From assembly GCA_027482195.1 (NCBI GenBank), contig JAIXWE010000085.1, positions 1 to 60,016 of the forward strand: a stretch of 60,016 nucleotides of DNA, written 5' to 3'. The DNA comes from Alphaproteobacteria bacterium (GTDB lineage Bacteria > Pseudomonadota > Alphaproteobacteria > Micavibrionales > Micavibrionaceae). The position numbers and the translations under genes are program-made. Positions 7,103 to 59,863 of this stretch are shown here, piece after piece (within the stretch, counting starts at the first letter, position 1; each line of letters begins with the position of its first letter). Under the pieces are notes generated by a model. The model was not told where the DNA came from, searched no databases, and saw nothing but the letters and a program-made list of their open reading frames with translations.

Positions 7103-10845
<3,743 letters not shown>

Positions 10846-49161: not shown

Positions 49162-50283
49162 TCATTTCCAGCTCTCAAAATCAATGTTCACTTCATATCG
49201 CCGTGCCCGACCTTCACCAATCGGCAAGAATATACCTAAATCAACTAAGTCCTGAATATCTCTTGTGGCTGTTGGCTTTGATGTATGGGTAATCGCAATA
49301 TATTTCTTCGCACTCATGCCCCCCTCAAAACCATATAAACCATCCTCTAACATCTTGCTTAAAACTCTGACTTGGCGGTCATTCAGGACTTTCTCGAAAT
49401 GATCAAAGAACCTAACCTTTTTAAGGGTAAAAGTAATTTGCGTTTCAGCTTGCTCCTGCGCCGCCAGGATTTCTGCACAAAAATATTTGATCCATTCTGT
49501 AATTTCGTTGGATTTTTGCGCTTGTTGAAGAGCCTCGTAATAATTGTTCTTTCTAGCCTCTATCGCATGCGAGAGGCTTAATAATACTGGACGACCTAAG
49601 CCCTGTGATAAAGCTTTTTCTGAGAGTGCACGACCCAATCTACCATTTCCATCTTCGAATGGGTGAAGCGTTTCAAAATATATGTGAACAATTGCAGATC
49701 GAATGATTGCCTTTTTTATTTCATATGGTCCGTTTGGGCCCGTTTCATTAAACCATTTAATAAATCGATCCATTTCGCGTGGAATGATCTTCGATGGGGG
49801 CGCTTCGAAATGAACAATCTCTTTACCCATACGCCCCGATACAACTTGCATCGGCTCTTCATGCGTACGCCATTGACCAATCTCACCCATGCGCCGCCCC
49901 TTCATAACCATTCTTTGCCAGGAGAATAGTGTCTCAGCTGTCAAAGGCTCCGCGTAGGTTTTTCTAACCGCAACCATCAACTCAGCTATCCCTCGCGCAC
50001 GCTTGTCACTTCCCTCTTCCTGAGGCGGATGAAGCCCAAGGTTATTCTTGATAGAGGACATGACATCTTTGCGACTTAAATACTCACCCTCGATTTCAGA
50101 TGTTTTGATTGCCTCAGACACCATCATATCGATGATCGCTTCGGAACGAACACTCTCAGGCAATGTGCCAATAATACCGCTCACAACCCCAACTTTTTCT
50201 GCAAAGGCTAAAACAATGTCGTCTACCACAGAGAGATCATATTTGAAGTTAGGCCAGTCATTTTGTTGCCAATTATAGGTCAT
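49162..50283 (-). CDS. Fic-family protein with DUF4172-like N-terminus and C-terminal wHTH
   Basis: LHPFEDGNGRLGRALS Fic motif; start refined to MTYNWQQNDWPNF; C-terminal TSKPTATRDIQDLVDLGIF. Confidence 0.9.
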   Translation of the reverse strand: MTYNWQQNDWPNFKYDLSVVDDIVLAFAEKVGVVSGIIGTLPESVRSEAIIDMMVSEAIKTSEIEGEYLSRKDVMSSIKNNLGLHPPQEEGSDKRARGIAELMVAVRKTYAEPLTAETLFSWQRMVMKGRRMGEIGQWRTHEEPMQVVSGRMGKEIVHFEAPPSKIIPREMDRFIKWFNETGPNGPYEIKKAIIRSAIVHIYFETLHPFEDGNGRLGRALSEKALSQGLGRPVLLSLSHAIEARKNNYYEALQQAQKSNEITEWIKYFCAEILAAQEQAETQITFTLKKVRFFDHFEKVLNDRQVRVLSKMLEDGLYGFEGGMSAKKYIAITHTSKPTATRDIQDLVDLGIFLPIGEGRARRYEVNIDFESWK

Positions 50284-50356
50284 GAGCCGATTATAACAGA
50301 AAATCGGCTCACAAATCATCATAAATATGAGCCGATTAGGGCTCTGAATCGGCTCA
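50283..50356. promoter_or_regulatory. tandem palindromic operator upstream of fic
   Basis: TGAGCCGATT-N9-AATCGGCTCA at 50283-50311 and 50328-50356. Confidence 0.8.
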
Positions 50357-50677
50357 TCACACAAAATCTAGAAAACAGGCAACAACTTAAAACTCAGCGG
50401 GTACAGGGCCGGAAGGCCTCGGACAAAAGAATGCCGATTTTTCTTTATAAATCAGATGTTTAAGGAAGATTTAGGAGTGTCTAGGAAGTAAGATTGGTTG
50501 TGTATGCGAACCGTCGGTTCAAACTTTCGAAATGATTATCAATTGTTGCCCTTCATGGCAAGTAATTTCAGCATTATCAAGCCAAATGTAGCCCTAGGCC
50601 ACATTACGTCCGCCAGTTCAAATCCCGACATGGTAATTGAACCAGAGACCTAAATAATTGGGTGTAATTGGGTATTT

Positions 50678-51264: not shown

Positions 51265-54126
51265 ATGGCGTTATATGATCTCAATCAATCCACCAGAACT
51301 CCTGGCGATGAAATGCCAGGGAGCAATGACTTGGATAGGATATTTAATGATCCGAGCACCGCTCATGCGCTTGATTTATCGGAGCGTTTTGCCAAGCGGG
51401 AATTGAGCGAAGCTGGTTTCAAGGATTTTTTAAATAGCCTGCCGTCAGATGCCGCCGCAGAACGCGCGAAGCTCGAACAGCTTTTGACGGGCAACGCCAT
51501 TGAGGCCGATCTTTCAACCCGCTCTGGCCAGCTGGTCTGGGCGGCGGGTCTTGCCTATGCCTTTCAAAATAATCCGCCCGGTTCTATCCGCTCTCACGCC
51601 GTCTGGCGCACCCTGACGCGCAATCCGCAAGTGTCGGGATCTCTGGGTGCTGCCGCCCGCTATGTCGATTTATCGCTGACCAATCGCAGCGCGACGATGG
51701 ATTGGGGAACGCCGGGAAGCTGGTTCTGGTTCGCGCCCGATAAAAACCATATCAATATCGACCTGTTTCACACGCTCCTGACCGGCTTTGGCAAAGACCC
51801 TGCGCCCGGCGTCAAGGGGATGGCCCACGCTGCCGGCGTAATGATGCACGAGGTCGGCCACTCGCAGTTGACGACCCGCTTTACCAAGCGCATGGCGGAA
51901 CTGCAAAAGCGCGAAAAAGAAATGATGGAGGCTTCCAAAGAACGGAAGCTGACACGCGATGAATTCAAGGAACTGACTCGTGTCCGCAAGGAATTCCAGC
52001 TTCGCATGAATGTTTTTAACGCAGCGGAAGATAACTGCGTCAACCAATATGCCGCCAACTATGGGCAGGAATTTCCCCACGATTTCGGCGCATCGCTGAA
52101 TGTCTGCAATATCCTTCTGCAAGGCTCCGGCGCGTATATACGCGCGGCGCAAGCGGGGAAACTGCCGCCGGGCGCGGATGCTGTCGCCGACCCGCAGCAA
52201 AGGGAAATCGAAAAAGCGAAAGAGACTCTGGGCAAACTTAATCAGGCTATCGCGCTTTCATTTTATACGACGAATGGCCTGTTTGACCGTGACGATGTGG
52301 AAACATGGAAACGGCTCGGTGTAAATCCCGATGATATCGATGCCATTGATACAAGCGCGCTTCATACTGCCGCCGACCATTTCCTGACAACGGGAAAAAG
52401 CGATTTTGAGCGACTTCTTGATCTCAATGTCGGCGTGAGCGGCATGTCGCAACAGCAGCCCGTCAGCCGCGACCGCTGGCTGTTGCGGAGCGTGTTCGCC
52501 CGCAGCGTGGACTCCTATGCCGACCGCCGTTGCCAGATCGTGGATGAAATCTGGGATAAATACGCCGCGCCGTATGCGAAAATCCTGATCGATGCCGCCG
52601 AAGAAAACGCCGAAAATAAAATGAACCAAAAGCAAAACGGCCAGCAGCAGGACGGCCAAGGACAAGATGGCCAAGGCGAAGGCCAGGGTCAAAGCGATGA
52701 CCAAAATCAAAGCCCCAGCCAGCAATCTTCGGGCGGCGGCAGTCCTTCCCAATCACAAGGCGGCGATGACCCATCGCCCTCGCAGGGCGGCGAAGAAAGT
52801 GGTGGCGGTTCCGGCTCCGTCGAGGTTGAAGGCGTCGGTAAAATGGATGTTGACGGCAATCCACTGCCCTCGACGCCGGAGGAAGCCCGTAAACAAGGGC
52901 GCAAAGGCGCAGAGAATGATGCGAAACCGGAAGACGCGCAAAGTGTGCGCGATCTGGCAAAAGACGCTAAGCAGGGTGATACGAAACCTCAGCAAGGCCG
53001 CAAAAACGAACCGACCCACAATAAAAGCAAGGACGATAAGGGCGGCCAAGAAGGAATGGATTCAGGCGGAACGCCGACCGACGGGCTGGATGGTTTGAAT
53101 GGCCGTTCCGGTGAGTATAGCCGCAGGCAGGATGTCGATCTTGCGGCGTTGGCGGTGGGAAGCTGGACCGAGTTTCGCAAGCGCATTAACGAACTGGAGC
53201 CGGTCATCGCCCGCGTGGCCGAGGATTTGAAAGTCGTGCGTGAGCAGCAAAAGCAGCCTGTCCGCGCTATCGTTCCCCAGCGCGAGAAAATTCCACGCGG
53301 CGGTGATATTCACCAACGTCTTGATATGCGTGCGCACATGAATTTTGCCATCAAACGGGCGACAGGTCAGAAAATAGAAGAGCCTGATATGCGCCGCTGG
53401 AAAATGGATCATGTGTCAAAAGAGCCAACGACTGTGGAATTGTGGATTTTAGGAGACGGATCGGGCAGCACGCGCCAATCACTATCGCATGGCGTTCGCC
53501 GTATTGATTCCTGTCTTCAAACGATGGCTATCCTGCATGAAGGCGGTAAGCGCGCCGATCTGGATGTCTATGCCGGAATTTGGGAAAATCATCAGGTGCG
53601 GATGCTTTCCGAGCCGACTTTCACGGAAGCACAGATTGGCAGAAATTTTGACTCCGTGCGCTTAAGTGGTGGCGTCGGCACGATCTACAACACGCCGCTT
53701 CCACAAATCATCGACCGCCTGTCCAGGCAGAGAACGAACGCGCAGGGCCAGTCTCACCGTTTCGGCGGCATGACGCATTTTTTGATCGTTCTGGACGGTA
53801 CGAAGAACGACCTGGAAATTCAGGAAACCGCCAACATGCTTTTGACGCTATTCCGCGTCGGCCCGGCAGTATCGGTCGATATCGCCTATCTGGGCGGCCA
53901 CCAGGATTGTGAGGCGCAGGAAATCGTGCGCCGGGTAAAAGAGAAAAACCCCAGAGCGGCTATTGATATTCTGGAAGCCAACGATGCAAGGGATGCCCCG
54001 TTGCTTTTGGTCAGAAAAATAAAGCAGCGCATGGAAAGAGCGTTGCATCAGGCCGTGCCGGATTCCCAGAAAAGGGACGCTTTTGGAGAGGCTTACAGAG
54101 GCATGACAAGGGCGGATTTGGGTTAA
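51265..54126 (+). CDS. metallopeptidase-like + vWA domain protein (CobT/DUF2201-VWA-like)
   Basis: HEVGH (HExxH) in AAGVMMHEVGHSQLTTRF; Q/G/S/D-rich linker; MIDAS-like LGDGSGSTRQSLSHGV. Confidence 0.85.
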   Translation: MALYDLNQSTRTPGDEMPGSNDLDRIFNDPSTAHALDLSERFAKRELSEAGFKDFLNSLPSDAAAERAKLEQLLTGNAIEADLSTRSGQLVWAAGLAYAFQNNPPGSIRSHAVWRTLTRNPQVSGSLGAAARYVDLSLTNRSATMDWGTPGSWFWFAPDKNHINIDLFHTLLTGFGKDPAPGVKGMAHAAGVMMHEVGHSQLTTRFTKRMAELQKREKEMMEASKERKLTRDEFKELTRVRKEFQLRMNVFNAAEDNCVNQYAANYGQEFPHDFGASLNVCNILLQGSGAYIRAAQAGKLPPGADAVADPQQREIEKAKETLGKLNQAIALSFYTTNGLFDRDDVETWKRLGVNPDDIDAIDTSALHTAADHFLTTGKSDFERLLDLNVGVSGMSQQQPVSRDRWLLRSVFARSVDSYADRRCQIVDEIWDKYAAPYAKILIDAAEENAENKMNQKQNGQQQDGQGQDGQGEGQGQSDDQNQSPSQQSSGGGSPSQSQGGDDPSPSQGGEESGGGSGSVEVEGVGKMDVDGNPLPSTPEEARKQGRKGAENDAKPEDAQSVRDLAKDAKQGDTKPQQGRKNEPTHNKSKDDKGGQEGMDSGGTPTDGLDGLNGRSGEYSRRQDVDLAALAVGSWTEFRKRINELEPVIARVAEDLKVVREQQKQPVRAIVPQREKIPRGGDIHQRLDMRAHMNFAIKRATGQKIEEPDMRRWKMDHVSKEPTTVELWILGDGSGSTRQSLSHGVRRIDSCLQTMAILHEGGKRADLDVYAGIWENHQVRMLSEPTFTEAQIGRNFDSVRLSGGVGTIYNTPLPQIIDRLSRQRTNAQGQSHRFGGMTHFLIVLDGTKNDLEIQETANMLLTLFRVGPAVSVDIAYLGGHQDCEAQEIVRRVKEKNPRAAIDILEANDARDAPLLLVRKIKQRMERALHQAVPDSQKRDAFGEAYRGMTRADLG

Positions 54127-54133
54127 CAAAAGA

Positions 54134-54162
54134 TTGACATGTTATTAAAAATGTATTAATAT
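54134..54162 (+). promoter_or_regulatory. strong sigma70-type promoter
   Basis: TTGACA-N17-TAATAT directly upstream of the AAA+ gene. Confidence 0.65.
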
Positions 54163-54199
54163 GCAAAATAACTTACAGGGTGGCACAAGCGGAGGCATT

Positions 54200-56800
54200 A
54201 TGAGTTTACTGGAAAAAACGTATGGAGAGCTGACCGAGGCTGATAAAGACAGCCTCCGTAAGCCATTGGGTGTGGCCGGTATTTCCTACCCTGAAGCCTA
54301 TCGACCAAAAGGTCAATCAGAGGTTGATCTGGCCATGAGCGGTCCCATTCCTTTGACCAGTGCAAGACCATACGAAGAGGTTGTCGGCCTTGCCTATTCG
54401 AACATGGCCGTGCCTTCGATGCTGGAGTTTGAACGCCGGATCATGGAGAAATCCAATCCGCAATCAAAAGGTTTTTTTACATTGGTGATTTCACCTCCGG
54501 GCTGGGGTAAAACGGAAGGCGCAGAAAACTTAGCCACAATAATTGACGATCGTGAAAGCCCTTATGTTTTCGTGAACTGTGCCGGCCGTAACCTTGAAGA
54601 ATTACTGTGGGAAACGGTGATTGATTTGGGCGAAGATTATCGCACTGCGTTGCTCGAAAAAATGAAGACCGAGGCGTTAAAGCCTAAAAGCAAGGAGATT
54701 TTAGAGAGGGAATTCAGTTCTGATGCCCTCATAAAAGATCGTCATGGTAATATTATCGGGATTAATGAAGATAAAACCGCAACGCCGCGCGTCATCGGTA
54801 AAGATAGCGAAGGAAAAAATATCTATGAAACCCCGCTTGAGGCCTTTGAGCGGGATATAAAAGTTCTGCGCCTGATTGCAGAATTTGAAGGGATTCCCAC
54901 GCAAGCCCAAAACACGCTAGGCATGAGAAAGGTTTTCAACCGCGCCCTTGAAAAGGCGATGACCGAAGGCCGTATGCTGATCTGGGATGAATTTGCAAAA
55001 GGGGTTGAAGCATCTGAAGAACCATTGTTGGAATTCGTTCAATGGGCGAACGGAATGGGCAAGGATACCATTACTGTCAGCAGTACATTCAGCGTGCATG
55101 GACGTAATGAAACAGCAGCGCGGGTTTTAAGGCGCAGCGACCGCGCCGCCGGATTTCAGATTGTCGCAACGGCCAATCCTGAAGATCCAATGTTTCAACA
55201 ATCCGACTCTTCCCCGATTTTATCCCGTATGGATATGTTTCCTATGGGTGAGCCGTCTGAAAGAGATTTGCAACACAGAGCAGGACAATTTTTAACCGGC
55301 CTACCCTTGTCAACGCACATGGCTTTTTTTGCTGATATCTGGAAAAGCGATGAGGATGAATTTAGAGAGCTACTATTAGAATGGCGTGAGAGCAAGGCCA
55401 AGGCCGAAGGAAAAGAAATTCCAATTGGTGAAGCACTGCGTTTGCGTGAGTTTACAAATACACGTGATGCCATTGAAAAAATCGCACAAGCCATCTTTTT
55501 TGCCAAACGCCTGATTGATACTAAATCTTCTCTTCATATAGCAGACGTAAACAAAGAAGGCACAACTCGGTTATACGATGCTGTACGCAATGAAATCCCT
55601 TCAGGTTTTGCAGCAAAAAATCCGATTGACCCGCGTTTGCTTGTAAAAAGAATTCTTCCTGAAGTAGAGAGCGGACGGCAAGCCCCCCAGATACCGGATG
55701 CTGAAAAAGGAATTAAACCTGTTTTTGATCGCAAGGCTCTGCGTCAGCCAGCCGCGAAACCTCCCTCAAGTGATCCCCATATGATGGAGGCTGAATTCGG
55801 AACAAGATTGCAAGCGGCGCTTGAACGCTGGGTGTTGGAATTAACGGCAAACTTACCTGATACACAAAAAATGCTGATAGCTGAATTTCAACAACGCGGC
55901 GTGGCCTTCACTCTCCCCGATCAGAAAAACACGGTCGCCTCACTTTTGAATCAGGATATGTTCGCGCATATCGGCGGAATCAAGAGCATCGTCGCGCTGA
56001 GGGAAATTCTGGCTAAACGCATGCGCCAAGGCAATTCGGCGCTGCGTGGTTCCACGGATAACGATCTTATTCCGATGGATGAAGCGGCGGCTCTTTGTGA
56101 GCAGCTTTCTCGTCTGCCGACGAATGACAACGCCAATCCGAACGTGGGACGCATTGTCACTCTCGGCAATGATCCTAAAAACGCTTTTAATCAGGCCGCT
56201 GCCATTGATGGCATCGTCACGGAAAAGCATAAGCCGAAAAAGCCTACAGCCTCCCAGCTTGTGCGATCCTCCGATTTTCTGGATACGCTCAAGGTTCCTA
56301 CGCTGGCCAATATCAACATGCGCTCGATTTGGAGAAAAACCCTGTCGAACGACAATGTTCTCCCGCGTAACCATGCTTACGCGCAGCTGGCCCAGATCGC
56401 CGAAGGAACGCATAAGAGCAAGATCGGCATCACGACCGTGATGACGCAGGGTGATACCGGCGAAGCCGTACCAATGCATGTGATGATCGACGGCGAACGC
56501 AAGAAAAGCCTGATTGTGGCCGATAACGTGGATGCCGATACGAAAGCCGCGCTTGGAAAGGATTACACGGTCGTTGCGTTTGATGACGCTGACGCTGAGG
56601 AACAAGTCACGGCCTTTATCCGCGATACGCTGCGCCATGCTTCCCGCCGTGATCAGGCGGCAGAGCTTGAAGGGCAGCTGGCAGCAGCCTTTTTGTTCCG
56701 CGCTGGCGATACGGCTAATGTGCAGTCGCTGGCTAAAATGATGTCGCGCAAGGATACGCAAGCCAAGGCGCCGGTTTATATGGTACAACAGTTAGGCTAA
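54200..56800 (+). CDS. MoxR/CobS-like AAA+ ATPase with long C-terminal extension
   Basis: Walker A SPPGWGKTE; Walker B-like RMLIWDEFAKG; start refined to ATG 54200 with GGAGG at 54191. Confidence 0.85.
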   Translation: MSLLEKTYGELTEADKDSLRKPLGVAGISYPEAYRPKGQSEVDLAMSGPIPLTSARPYEEVVGLAYSNMAVPSMLEFERRIMEKSNPQSKGFFTLVISPPGWGKTEGAENLATIIDDRESPYVFVNCAGRNLEELLWETVIDLGEDYRTALLEKMKTEALKPKSKEILEREFSSDALIKDRHGNIIGINEDKTATPRVIGKDSEGKNIYETPLEAFERDIKVLRLIAEFEGIPTQAQNTLGMRKVFNRALEKAMTEGRMLIWDEFAKGVEASEEPLLEFVQWANGMGKDTITVSSTFSVHGRNETAARVLRRSDRAAGFQIVATANPEDPMFQQSDSSPILSRMDMFPMGEPSERDLQHRAGQFLTGLPLSTHMAFFADIWKSDEDEFRELLLEWRESKAKAEGKEIPIGEALRLREFTNTRDAIEKIAQAIFFAKRLIDTKSSLHIADVNKEGTTRLYDAVRNEIPSGFAAKNPIDPRLLVKRILPEVESGRQAPQIPDAEKGIKPVFDRKALRQPAAKPPSSDPHMMEAEFGTRLQAALERWVLELTANLPDTQKMLIAEFQQRGVAFTLPDQKNTVASLLNQDMFAHIGGIKSIVALREILAKRMRQGNSALRGSTDNDLIPMDEAAALCEQLSRLPTNDNANPNVGRIVTLGNDPKNAFNQAAAIDGIVTEKHKPKKPTASQLVRSSDFLDTLKVPTLANINMRSIWRKTLSNDNVLPRNHAYAQLAQIAEGTHKSKIGITTVMTQGDTGEAVPMHVMIDGERKKSLIVADNVDADTKAALGKDYTVVAFDDADAEEQVTAFIRDTLRHASRRDQAAELEGQLAAAFLFRAGDTANVQSLAKMMSRKDTQAKAPVYMVQQLG

Positions 56801-56811
56801 GGGAAAGAGAG

Positions 56812-57591
56812 ATGTCCATGTTTTCATCGGTTTTAGGAAAAAAAGACGAAATTAAAATTCCCGGCATTCCGGCTGATTTCGCTGCCGTGGTGGCTCGTTT
56901 ACAAGGGCGTGCGCCTTCGAATAACGACCGTTTGCGTCTGTCTTCCGGGATGACCGTCGAGCAATTCCTGCCGATTTCAACGGAAATTCTGGCCAAGCCA
57001 CCGGAGCCGCCGAAGCCGGTCTTTGACCCCAGCCAGCTTGAGGCCGGAAAACTAATCGAGGGCAAAGGCATTTATCTCGGCACATGGGAGCCGAAGGACA
57101 AAAATGGTCGGACGCTGGGCAAGATTTTTGATATTTACGCCGCGCCGGAAGATATCAGGAATGGCAGCGGCAATCTTTTGATGACCTTCAATAATGCCGT
57201 AAAGCATGTCGCGGGTCTGAGAAATTACCACGGTCACGACGGCGGCAATTTTGCGAACGAAAAAGCCATTCTGGAAGCTGTTCGCAACAATCCTGCTGCT
57301 CTTGCACAATGGTTTCTCCCGACGAAGGAACTGCTGCATGGCAAGACGAGTGGCGGCGATAAAATCCAGCCTGCGAACCTTTATGATAGCCGCAACACCG
57401 GTGCTTTCAAGAACACGTTTATAACGAAGAGTGGCTCCGGCTTCGCCCATTGGTACTGGTCGCTTACGGAGCATCCGGACTACCCGTCCTACGTCTCCGG
57501 CGTCGGCTTCACGGACGGCGGCGACGATTGGGACCGTAAGGACTACGGCGAGCTGTCCTCACGGGTCGTCCGCGCGGAACTGCGACCGTAG
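56812..57591 (+). CDS. DGR target protein with C-type-lectin-like variable C-terminus
   Basis: VR spans its last ~50 codons; FAHWYWSLTEHPDYPSYVSGVGFTDGGDDWDRKDYGELSSRVVRAE typical of DGR CLec variable regions. Confidence 0.92.
   Translation: MSMFSSVLGKKDEIKIPGIPADFAAVVARLQGRAPSNNDRLRLSSGMTVEQFLPISTEILAKPPEPPKPVFDPSQLEAGKLIEGKGIYLGTWEPKDKNGRTLGKIFDIYAAPEDIRNGSGNLLMTFNNAVKHVAGLRNYHGHDGGNFANEKAILEAVRNNPAALAQWFLPTKELLHGKTSGGDKIQPANLYDSRNTGAFKNTFITKSGSGFAHWYWSLTEHPDYPSYVSGVGFTDGGDDWDRKDYGELSSRVVRAELRP
57430..57579 (+). repeat. DGR variable repeat (VR)
   Basis: 150 bp aligned without gaps to TR 58232-58381; 12 mismatches, all at TR adenines. Confidence 0.95.
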
Positions 57592-57633
57592 CGTAAGCGA
57601 AGGTCGTTAGTCATTTAATCATTTAATTATTTA

Positions 57634-57660
57634 GTTGCGCGCATCGCGCGCAACTTTTTT
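57634..57660 (+). terminator. intrinsic terminator between target gene and avd
   Basis: gttgcgcgc-atc-gcgcgcaac followed by TTTTTT. Confidence 0.8.
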
Positions 57661-57717
57661 AAGACGGACCCCGCGAAGCGGGGCCACAAAAAAATTTTGG
57701 GGCGGGTTTAAGGAAAA

Positions 57718-58080
57718 ATGGCGCAATATCAACACCTTCCGATATATAAACAAACCTATGACATTCTTCTGCGGACGATGATCGCGACAAAAGACTTTCC
57801 CCGCGAATATAAATACAGCCTGGGCCAGAAAATTAAGGACGAACTGATCGAGCTGGTCGTTTTGATTTATCGCGCCAATTCTGCTACAGATAAGAAACAG
57901 CATATCGAATCTATTTTAGAGCGTGTTCAGGCGATCCAGCTTCTTATGCGTCTGTCGCACGACATGAAAATTTTGTCGCGGAAACATTACGCGGCTTTAT
58001 CAGAGATGACCGAAAGCCTGGCGAAACAAGCGCAAGGCTGGTTAAACAGTTCGGGGAAGGGGAGGCCAGAACGGAAATAG
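57718..58080 (+). CDS. avd: DGR accessory variability determinant (Avd)-like protein
   Basis: 120 aa helical; LPIYKQTYDILLRTMIATKDFPREYKYSLGQKIKDELIELVVLIYRAN typical of the Avd/four-helix family; between VR and TR. Confidence 0.88.
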   Translation: MAQYQHLPIYKQTYDILLRTMIATKDFPREYKYSLGQKIKDELIELVVLIYRANSATDKKQHIESILERVQAIQLLMRLSHDMKILSRKHYAALSEMTESLAKQAQGWLNSSGKGRPERK

Positions 58081-58231
58081 GTTACGGCCTATCCGGTGAG
58101 CATATTCAGTTCGGATGGTGGCGGTATCTGCCCCATAAGGGGTGGAATACCAAAGCAGAAACCTGAAAGGGTGGAAGACTTGGCGAATGATTATTCGCTC
58201 GCCCGGATCATGAGACTGCCATCGACACGCT

Positions 58232-58381
58232 AGTGGCTCCGGCAACGCCCATTGGTACTGGTCGCTTACGGAGCATCCGGACAACCCGTCCAACGTCTAC
58301 GACGTCGACTTCACGGACGGCGACGACGATTGGGACCATAAGGACAACAACGAGCTGTCCTCACGGGTCGTCCGCGCGGAA
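58232..58381 (+). repeat. DGR template repeat (TR)
   Basis: Same 150 bp as VR with adenines at all variable positions; five AAC codons in VR frame. Confidence 0.95.
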
Positions 58382-58409
58382 TTGAACTACCCTTTCTCGA
58401 TCCCTTTTG

Positions 58410-58444
58410 AAACCGGCCTCCTAATCAGAGGCCGGTTTTATTTT
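58410..58444 (+). terminator. intrinsic terminator just after TR
   Basis: aaaccggcctc-ctaatca-gaggccggttt (11-bp stem) then TATTTT on + strand. Confidence 0.85.
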
Positions 58445-59548
58445 GGTGCAATCTTCATCGGCCTGCAGGAACAGGCTTTCGATGCGTTTGCAGACGGATT
58501 TTCGGGCATTGTATCCGTCAACCTGGCGCAGCATGCCGAGATAACTGTTCACGCTTTCGGCCAGATCGTCCAGCGCTTCTGGATCGATGGGTTTTCCCTT
58601 GCGCTCCCACGCCCTGATTTTCTGTTTACAGTTGATCACGGCGGTCTGGCGAAGATAGGTGCGGCCAGGCTTGATAATGAAACCGGTGAAATCAATACCC
58701 TTATCGGCAAAGTTTATATGTTTCTTTTTGGGGTGCAGGCGGATGGCTAAAGTTTCCTGCAGGAATTGATCTATGCGTTCATACCAATCATTCAGCACGG
58801 CGGGGTCTTCATGAAAAAGCACCATGTCATCGACATAACGACCATAGTACCGCGCCCTCAGCGTTTTCTTTACGAATTGATCCAGCGGATTCATATAGAC
58901 ATTGGCAAAAAACTGGCTTGTCAGATTACCAATCGGAAGTCCCTTACCATCGCCAGCGTGAAAAAGGCTTTTATGGCGCGGCACCATCGCAAATTCTTTA
59001 TCGGGAGAGCGCGGCTGGTAATTGGTGCTTGGGTCATGCAGCGCCACCTGCCGGATAAGCGCCATAAGCCAGTCCTCATGCACGTGCTGCTCTAACAGCT
59101 TGACAAGGATGGATCTGTCGATGGAATTGAAGAAATTGGCGACATCTGCTTTCATATAGTAAGCGGGCCGTGACCAGCTTTGCGTTATCGAGCGCGCATG
59201 CGCTGTAACCCGGCGTAAACCATCATGCGTTCCGCGTCCAGGTATGCATGCATAGTTGTCACGGATGAAGCGCCGGTGAAAACGATCACAAATGGCGTTG
59301 TATATTAAATGATGAACAACGCGGTCACGGAAATCCGCCGCCCATACTTCCCGAATTTTTGGATGTGTAATAACAAAAGCAATGCTTCGCCCGATTTTGT
59401 AACTCCCGCTGGTGAGGTCTTCGTAAAGCTCAACGAGGTTTTTTTCTAAATCGGCTTCAAATCTAAGCTGGTTTATTGTGTTCCGTTTTTCCCTGCGGCA
59501 ATCAAAATAAGCATCAAAAACAGCATATATGGTGAGTTTGGCATCCAT
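58421..59548 (-). CDS. DGR-type reverse transcriptase
   Basis: YYMKADVANFFNSID, GLPIGNLTSQFFANVYMNPLDQFV, YYGRYVDDMVLF, GFIIKPGRTYLR. Confidence 0.95.
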   Translation of the reverse strand: MDAKLTIYAVFDAYFDCRREKRNTINQLRFEADLEKNLVELYEDLTSGSYKIGRSIAFVITHPKIREVWAADFRDRVVHHLIYNAICDRFHRRFIRDNYACIPGRGTHDGLRRVTAHARSITQSWSRPAYYMKADVANFFNSIDRSILVKLLEQHVHEDWLMALIRQVALHDPSTNYQPRSPDKEFAMVPRHKSLFHAGDGKGLPIGNLTSQFFANVYMNPLDQFVKKTLRARYYGRYVDDMVLFHEDPAVLNDWYERIDQFLQETLAIRLHPKKKHINFADKGIDFTGFIIKPGRTYLRQTAVINCKQKIRAWERKGKPIDPEALDDLAESVNSYLGMLRQVDGYNARKSVCKRIESLFLQADEDCTKIKPASD

Positions 59549-59560
59549 AAAGATACCCTC

Positions 59561-59863
59561 TTATTCAACGCCCTTAAGAAAATCCTTGAAGCCCGAATTT
59601 GGATTATTAAGTCGCGTTTTATAGATTTGGATTAACTCCCAAGCTTCGTTAAACAGTTGATTGAACAGTTTGGGATCAATCTGCCCCCTGATATAAACTG
59701 TACAGGGCATAACGCTGTCAGGATCTTGCTGCACAATCATCAGCGGGGCATCTGTGTGGGTGACGTAGAGGCTATTTGTGCTAAGGCCCGTGCCCACAAC
59801 CCATTTATCCGGAATCAAATTAGTTTCTTCCCCTTTTGTTTTTATGACTACATTATCTGCCAT
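59561..59863 (-). CDS. hypothetical protein upstream of and likely co-transcribed with the RT
   Basis: 100 aa ORF, AGGAGG SD upstream of ATG, 12-nt gap to RT. Confidence 0.7.
   Translation of the reverse strand: MADNVVIKTKGEETNLIPDKWVVGTGLSTNSLYVTHTDAPLMIVQQDPDSVMPCTVYIRGQIDPKLFNQLFNEAWELIQIYKTRLNNPNSGFKDFLKGVE

Follow-up and report, generated by a model that had tools for sequence, protein, structure and literature searches.

A chromosomal diversity-generating retroelement with an inverted reverse transcriptase and a structured leader RNA in a Micavibrio-like bacterium

The window, by which we mean the whole 60,016-nt stretch of DNA analysed here, is one entire contig of a 1.8-Mb assembly from a Micavibrio-like bacterium. 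Close to its end lies a diversity-generating retroelement (DGR) in which the target gene, avd and the template repeat (TR) are encoded on the plus strand, and the reverse transcriptase (RT) together with a small open reading frame, P100, on the minus strand (Table 1). The RT gene is convergent with all of the former, the variable region (VR) included, which is the arrangement that defines inverted (group 4) DGRs. The end of TR and the stop codon of the RT gene are only ~36 nt apart; past P100 the contig continues for ~150 bp. The neighbouring genes are chromosomal (mur ligase, PBP, ligA, acetyl-CoA synthetase-like). A prophage origin of the window was rejected, with no phage structural gene among the ~20 window genes scanned. 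A Fic/DOC family protein with a DUF4172 domain is encoded at 49162-50364 on the minus strand, close to the operon of the target. No further VR, TR or RT of the same kind was detected elsewhere in the 1.8-Mb assembly.

Table 1. Features of the element and of the operon that contains its target gene.
Feature	Position	Strand	Basis
VWA protein, 953 aa; HEVGH (residue 195), MIDAS-like DGSGS (731); first operon gene	51265..54126	+	ORF, motifs, relatives
MoxR-like AAA ATPase, 879 aa; P-loop PPGWGKT at 112	54161..56800	+	motif, sub-threshold Pfam
DGR target protein, 259 aa; VR forms the C-terminus	56812..57591	+	ORF; weak Lcl_C match
VR	57430..57579	+	pairwise alignment with TR
Weak stem-loop immediately past VR	57583..57606	+	z -1.5, alone not significant
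AT-rich element GTCATTTAATCATTTAATTATTT	57610..57632	+	single occurrence in window; 0 expected
Terminator-like hairpin with T run, 3' of target gene	57633..57655	+	hairpin search
avd, 120 aa	57718..58080	+	Pfam bAvd, NCBIfam, PHROG
Structured leader RNA up to TR; three hairpins inside an enclosing helix	58075..58227	+	covariation; model R1 143 bits
TR	58232..58381	+	pairwise alignment with VR
Short conserved tail past TR (..CCCTTTC..CGATCC)	58385..58407	+	comparison of loci
Terminator-like hairpin, overlapping the RT stop codon (58421-58423, minus strand)	58408..58440	+	hairpin search
DGR RT, 375 aa; IGNLTSQ and YVDD; inverted relative to TR	58421..59548	-	ORF, Pfam, PHROG, PDB, tree
P100, 100-aa ORF, 12 bp upstream of RT	59561..59863	-	ORF; homologs 54-60% identical

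VR and TR align over 150 bp without gaps, and their similarity stops sharply on both flanks. All 12 mismatches fall on TR adenines, which make up 34 of the 150 TR bases (hypergeometric P = 3.2e-9), and realignment yielded no mismatch at any other base. Ten codons are changed (AAC>TTC, AAC>TAC three times, AAC>GGC, TAC>TCC, GAC>GGC three times and CAT>CGT), every one of them non-synonymously, and all five AAC codons of TR are altered in VR. The sole TR codon that could become a stop through an A>N change, AAG, is unchanged, and VR is free of stop codons. VR occupies the 3' end of the target gene, as is seen in DGRs. The product of avd matches Pfam bAvd (3.9e-17, 63.1 bits against a cut-off of 40), NCBIfam DivGenRetAVD (2e-17, 63.4 bits against a cut-off of 80) and the PHROG family “Avd protein of DGR” (1.4e-28). 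A sequence-only reading had proposed a complete DGR with an Avd-like protein and a DGR-type RT that has acted at this VR. The adenine-only pair, Avd, an RT of the DGR kind (below) and a target gene ending in VR together identify the element as a DGR, and the adenine-only signature bears out that it has acted at this site. That reading was thus right as far as it went; it overlooked the inversion of the RT, the small ORF, the leader RNA and the VWA-MoxR operon.

The RT matches Pfam RVT_1 (3e-16) and the PHROG reverse transcriptase family phrog_1423 (1e-108), and its best PDB chain is 8ub7, “Reverse transcriptase”, which we take to be the RT of BPP-1. In a tree of DGR and group II intron RTs it was placed among the DGR RTs with those of BPP-1, BalMu-1, Lagaffe, Magia, Haboob and Cruim01, and the group II intron RTs were set apart by a branch with 100/100 support. 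Retron and Abi RTs were assessed by models instead of the tree: the NCBIfam and PADLOC models for these two classes scored far below their cut-offs on the window RT. RTs of the same kind are present in 8 of 104 genomes of the family, the window's own included, and the relatives comprise “Micavibrio sp. UBA6139”, other Alphaproteobacteria MAGs and contigs binned as Acidobacteriota. Seven loci are canonical, with avd-TR-RT in that order on a single strand (L040, L042, L051, L052, L053, L056 and L058). The inverted order is seen in the window, at L041/L060 (MAG OFTM372) and on the phage contigs L012, L013 and L032, which are among the nearest inverted relatives. A terminase gene is present on L012 and an integrase gene on L032; L041 lies near tail-spike-like genes. 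Because the same layout recurs in these independent assemblies, an assembly error was rejected as its source. Pieces of Micavibrio-type DGRs also occur on Acidobacteriota-binned contigs (L051, L056 and L061; isolates “palsa”), by horizontal transfer or misbinning.

Inverted DGRs were described by Schillinger et al. in 2012 from three marine gammaproteobacteria and were read as a one-time event; the published group 4 elements are those of Shewanella baltica OS155, Vibrio RC586 and Photobacterium S14 (PMC3521204). They resemble the window element in having the RT on one strand and TR, VR and target on the other, in adenine-only substitutions and in a TR end that adjoins the 3' end of the RT gene (L104, L109). 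They differ in their large Ig-like targets (Shewanella and Aeromonas cases) and in having neither the Micavibrio-type leader RNA nor P100. Their RTs differ as well: a separate, well-supported group (100/99) is formed by the RTs of Shewanella OS155, Yersinia and Aeromonas, in which TR and RT likewise lie on different strands. The 12 Micavibrio-type RTs form a single, mostly canonical clade with 100/100 support, in which the three inverted members cluster at 94/86 and adjoin canonical L053 and L056. A second, smaller RT tree gave the same picture, with the inverted trio at 90/84. One joint clade of all inverted RTs is rejected by the AU test (p=0.0024), and parsimony on the RT tree needs two changes of layout. 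Since this rejection is accompanied by nesting of the inverted trio within canonical relatives, inversion of the RT arose at least twice, and the Micavibrio-type trio likely goes back to one such event. The shared layout, in which TR ends beside the 3' end of an RT gene encoded opposite to target and TR, and the modest support for monophyly of the trio in both trees would fit a single ancient inversion common to the Micavibrio and Shewanella/Yersinia/Aeromonas types, after which the canonical Micavibrio-type members re-inverted. Against the AU result, the two changes required by parsimony and the fully supported, mostly canonical clade, we consider that history very improbable.

A comparison of VR between strains, which the sequence-only reading had suggested for the window, was carried out on a sister inverted element, that of L012 and L032, two contigs from separate IMG/VR records. 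Their alignment of 1,982 bases, covering the 3' part of the RT gene, TR, leader, avd and target, contains 18 differences, and all 18 lie within the 142-bp VR at TR adenines (P=1.3e-11); TR is identical and the 1,840 bp of flank show no difference. The VR of L013 equals that of L032. The inverted layout is therefore active in nature, as shown for this sister element. The RT gene of L032 carries a 206-bp deletion around position 8474 relative to L012 that is absent from L013 over the same stretch, and which is either a real loss or an assembly error. L040 (G041:C24, 1152-3323) is a canonical DGR with two avd copies: the upstream one is frameshifted, and the other, which is truncated, lies right behind the RT gene on the opposite strand. 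This locus is a possible rearrangement intermediate between the canonical and inverted layouts. Broken relatives are also found at L061 (fused remnants) and L046 (partial RT).

A leader of ~150 nt between avd and TR is common to all complete Micavibrio-type members, canonical or inverted. Its covariation was assessed with RNAalifold and pair counting. The alignment tested is also the one from which the structure was derived, which somewhat favours the structure; on this footing 17 of 35 pairs show two-sided changes, 94.6% of the alignment cells are paired and 47 cells carry two-sided changes vs. 13 in shuffles. None of 500 shuffles reached the observed value on any measure, and the signal collapsed when the partners were slid by 1-3 columns. 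Every Micavibrio-type locus that covers this region is found by the covariance model built from the leader (R1), at 104-150 bits; the training rows match by construction and L044 lay outside the training set. The model finds no other DGR among 58 loci. The leader has no match in Rfam. A pairing of GAAAGGG in the leader with CCCTTTC of the tail past TR, seen in the window, was rejected as a general feature, since a covarying hairpin has GAAA as its loop.

The element shares with the BPP-1 DGR an Avd, a TR, an RT with a YxDD motif, a C-terminal VR and the adenine bias, in addition to the structural match of the RT. In BPP-1, however, all genes are on one strand, and a ~144-nt spacer between TR and brt, downstream of TR, recruits RT-Avd (PMC12875486). 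The window has a convergent RT and a far shorter downstream stretch, and its evident structured RNA lies upstream of TR. By analogy, the upstream leader may have taken over the recruiting role of the BPP-1 spacer. The stem-loop immediately past VR is a candidate counterpart of the post-IMH hairpin of BPP-1. An AT-rich element resembling TTAGTCATTTAATCATTTAATTATTT is found 3' of VR in most Micavibrio-type loci, usually ahead of a GC-rich hairpin, and is a candidate target-recognition element. A possible second target on contig C102, flagged by the AT-rich motif, sits among PBP/MreC-type genes and was dismissed as a chance match. Past the TR end, CCCTTTC is present in eight of the ten Micavibrio-type loci compared. 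The hairpin that follows could mark the end of the TR transcript; no counterpart of it is evident in L012 or L060.

Homologs of P100 are present in every inverted relative and at none of the canonical loci, and a direct search for P100 in phages and further viral contigs returned none. A promoter-like site precedes the gene at 59917-59888, but the count of such sites is no higher than expected by chance. An AlphaFold model of P100 was of too poor quality for use.

The target gene follows the gene of the MoxR-like ATPase by 11 bp and is the third in an operon that begins with the VWA protein. The latter has no Pfam match of its own, and its assignment is based on the DGSGS motif and on sub-threshold VWA_CoxE/VWA_2 matches of a relative; its relatives in the same family are 22-29% identical and are paired with MoxR. 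The ATPase matches AAA_22 (3e-4) and AAA_5 (4e-3), both under the cut-off, and has relatives in six other genomes of the family. A lectin fold of the target is suggested by a weak match to Lcl_C (0.0097), to which the target of L012 matches at 1e-6. The target profile had no match in the PDB, an AlphaFold model of the target was uninformative (pLDDT 36), and no evident signal peptide or transmembrane stretch was seen by eye. The target is best described as a probably cytoplasmic, putatively lectin-like product of the VWA-MoxR operon.

In the canonical relative L053 a VWA gene and a MoxR gene are followed by three related proteins, the last of which ends in VR, and then by a canonical DGR. The L053 target is 51% identical to that of the window, and the likeness of the two VWA-MoxR pairs is one of gene order, with proteins just 23-26% identical. 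Lectin C-termini were considered for the two extra L053 operon proteins and rejected, as their ends are unlike the VR region and contain no VR; their other parts are common with the L053 target. In five genomes of the family VWA-MoxR pairs occur without an adjacent DGR and are followed by genes of ~120 aa and ~485 aa, a conserved four-gene operon (L094-L098). Another locus, L100 (720-2042, minus strand), encodes a 440-aa protein with two target-like modules (71% and 43% identical); its genome yielded no RT of the same kind.

DGR-diversified proteins encoded beside MoxR and vWA have been proposed to be sensors of conflict systems (PMC7159879, PMC10907252). The window resembles these ternary systems in that a predicted MoxR-like ATPase lies directly upstream of the DGR target, a predicted VWA gene is in the operon and the N-terminal part of the target is uncharacterised. 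It differs in that its RT groups with phage DGR RTs, the VWA protein is separate from the target and no VMAP, peptidase or adapter domain was found in the genes of 49-60 kb, up to the contig end at 60,016. By this comparison the window would match the conflict-system pattern only loosely. A role as a variable sensor that signals through the VWA-MoxR pair is the likeliest one for the target, with chances that we put at about even.

Overall, we are confident that this is a chromosomal, probably functional DGR with target, avd and template expressed from the plus strand and a convergent RT expressed from the minus strand. In the likely mechanism, plus-strand transcription would yield an avd-leader-TR RNA. 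The RT would be made with P100 from a separate minus-strand unit and act on this RNA in trans, together with Avd. The folded leader beside TR may be where the RT-Avd complex recognises its template or stops. The 3' end of the target gene, VR, would then be replaced by adenine-mutagenised TR cDNA through retrohoming in the living cell, and the target would sense a signal to be relayed by the VWA-MoxR pair.

The same data could also describe a DGR that was formerly active and is now fixed, with a VR left by past retrohoming and no more turnover. The strain comparison concerns the sister element rather than the window locus, and the defective copies of avd and RT among the relatives fit such decay. 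In the window itself, however, every component is open and intact, from target, avd and leader to TR and an RT with both motifs; VR has no stops, and the related inverted element varies between strains, so that we regard fixation as unlikely. A role of the target at the surface or in prey/host recognition, instead of an intracellular one in a conflict system, is slightly less unlikely and still doubtful. The family includes a MAG deposited as Micavibrio, a genus known for preying on other bacteria. The L012/L032 element resides in phage with terminase and integrase, with L041 near tail-spike-like genes, and DGR targets in phages are usually receptor-binding. This is opposed by the apparent lack of export signals, by the position of the target gene directly behind MoxR and by the chromosomal neighbourhood.

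The preferred reading, a functional convergent DGR with an operon-encoded target, belongs in its core to a known kind of DGR; the second-origin inversion, the leader RNA of its own and the small partner gene are moderately novel. Inversion is more than a single accident, and the activity of an inverted element in nature means that a shared transcript for RT and template RNA is dispensable. The inversion also narrows the cis-acting RNA to the few nucleotides between TR and the RT stop and to the conserved upstream fold, which was kept, so that upstream and downstream RNA roles become directly testable. We suggest tentatively, as a reading less likely than not, that inversion is a recurrent, functional uncoupling of RT and template, here in a second lineage derived from phage-type DGRs, in which the leader replaced the BPP-1 spacer and P100 was gained, and which a bacterium captured to diversify the sensor of a VWA-MoxR defence operon.

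The RT-15 RNA of phage DGRs (Rfam RF03018) resembles the Micavibrio-type leader in its position between avd and TR and in its enclosing helix with three inner hairpins. The two differ in sequence models: RT-15 has no match in the window even at E<=1, remaining below the gathering threshold, and R1 finds none of the RT-15 loci. At L048, L049, L050, L018 and L019, RT-15 is placed exactly between avd and TR of phage DGRs, and RT-15 is therefore the DGR leader RNA of that phage clade.
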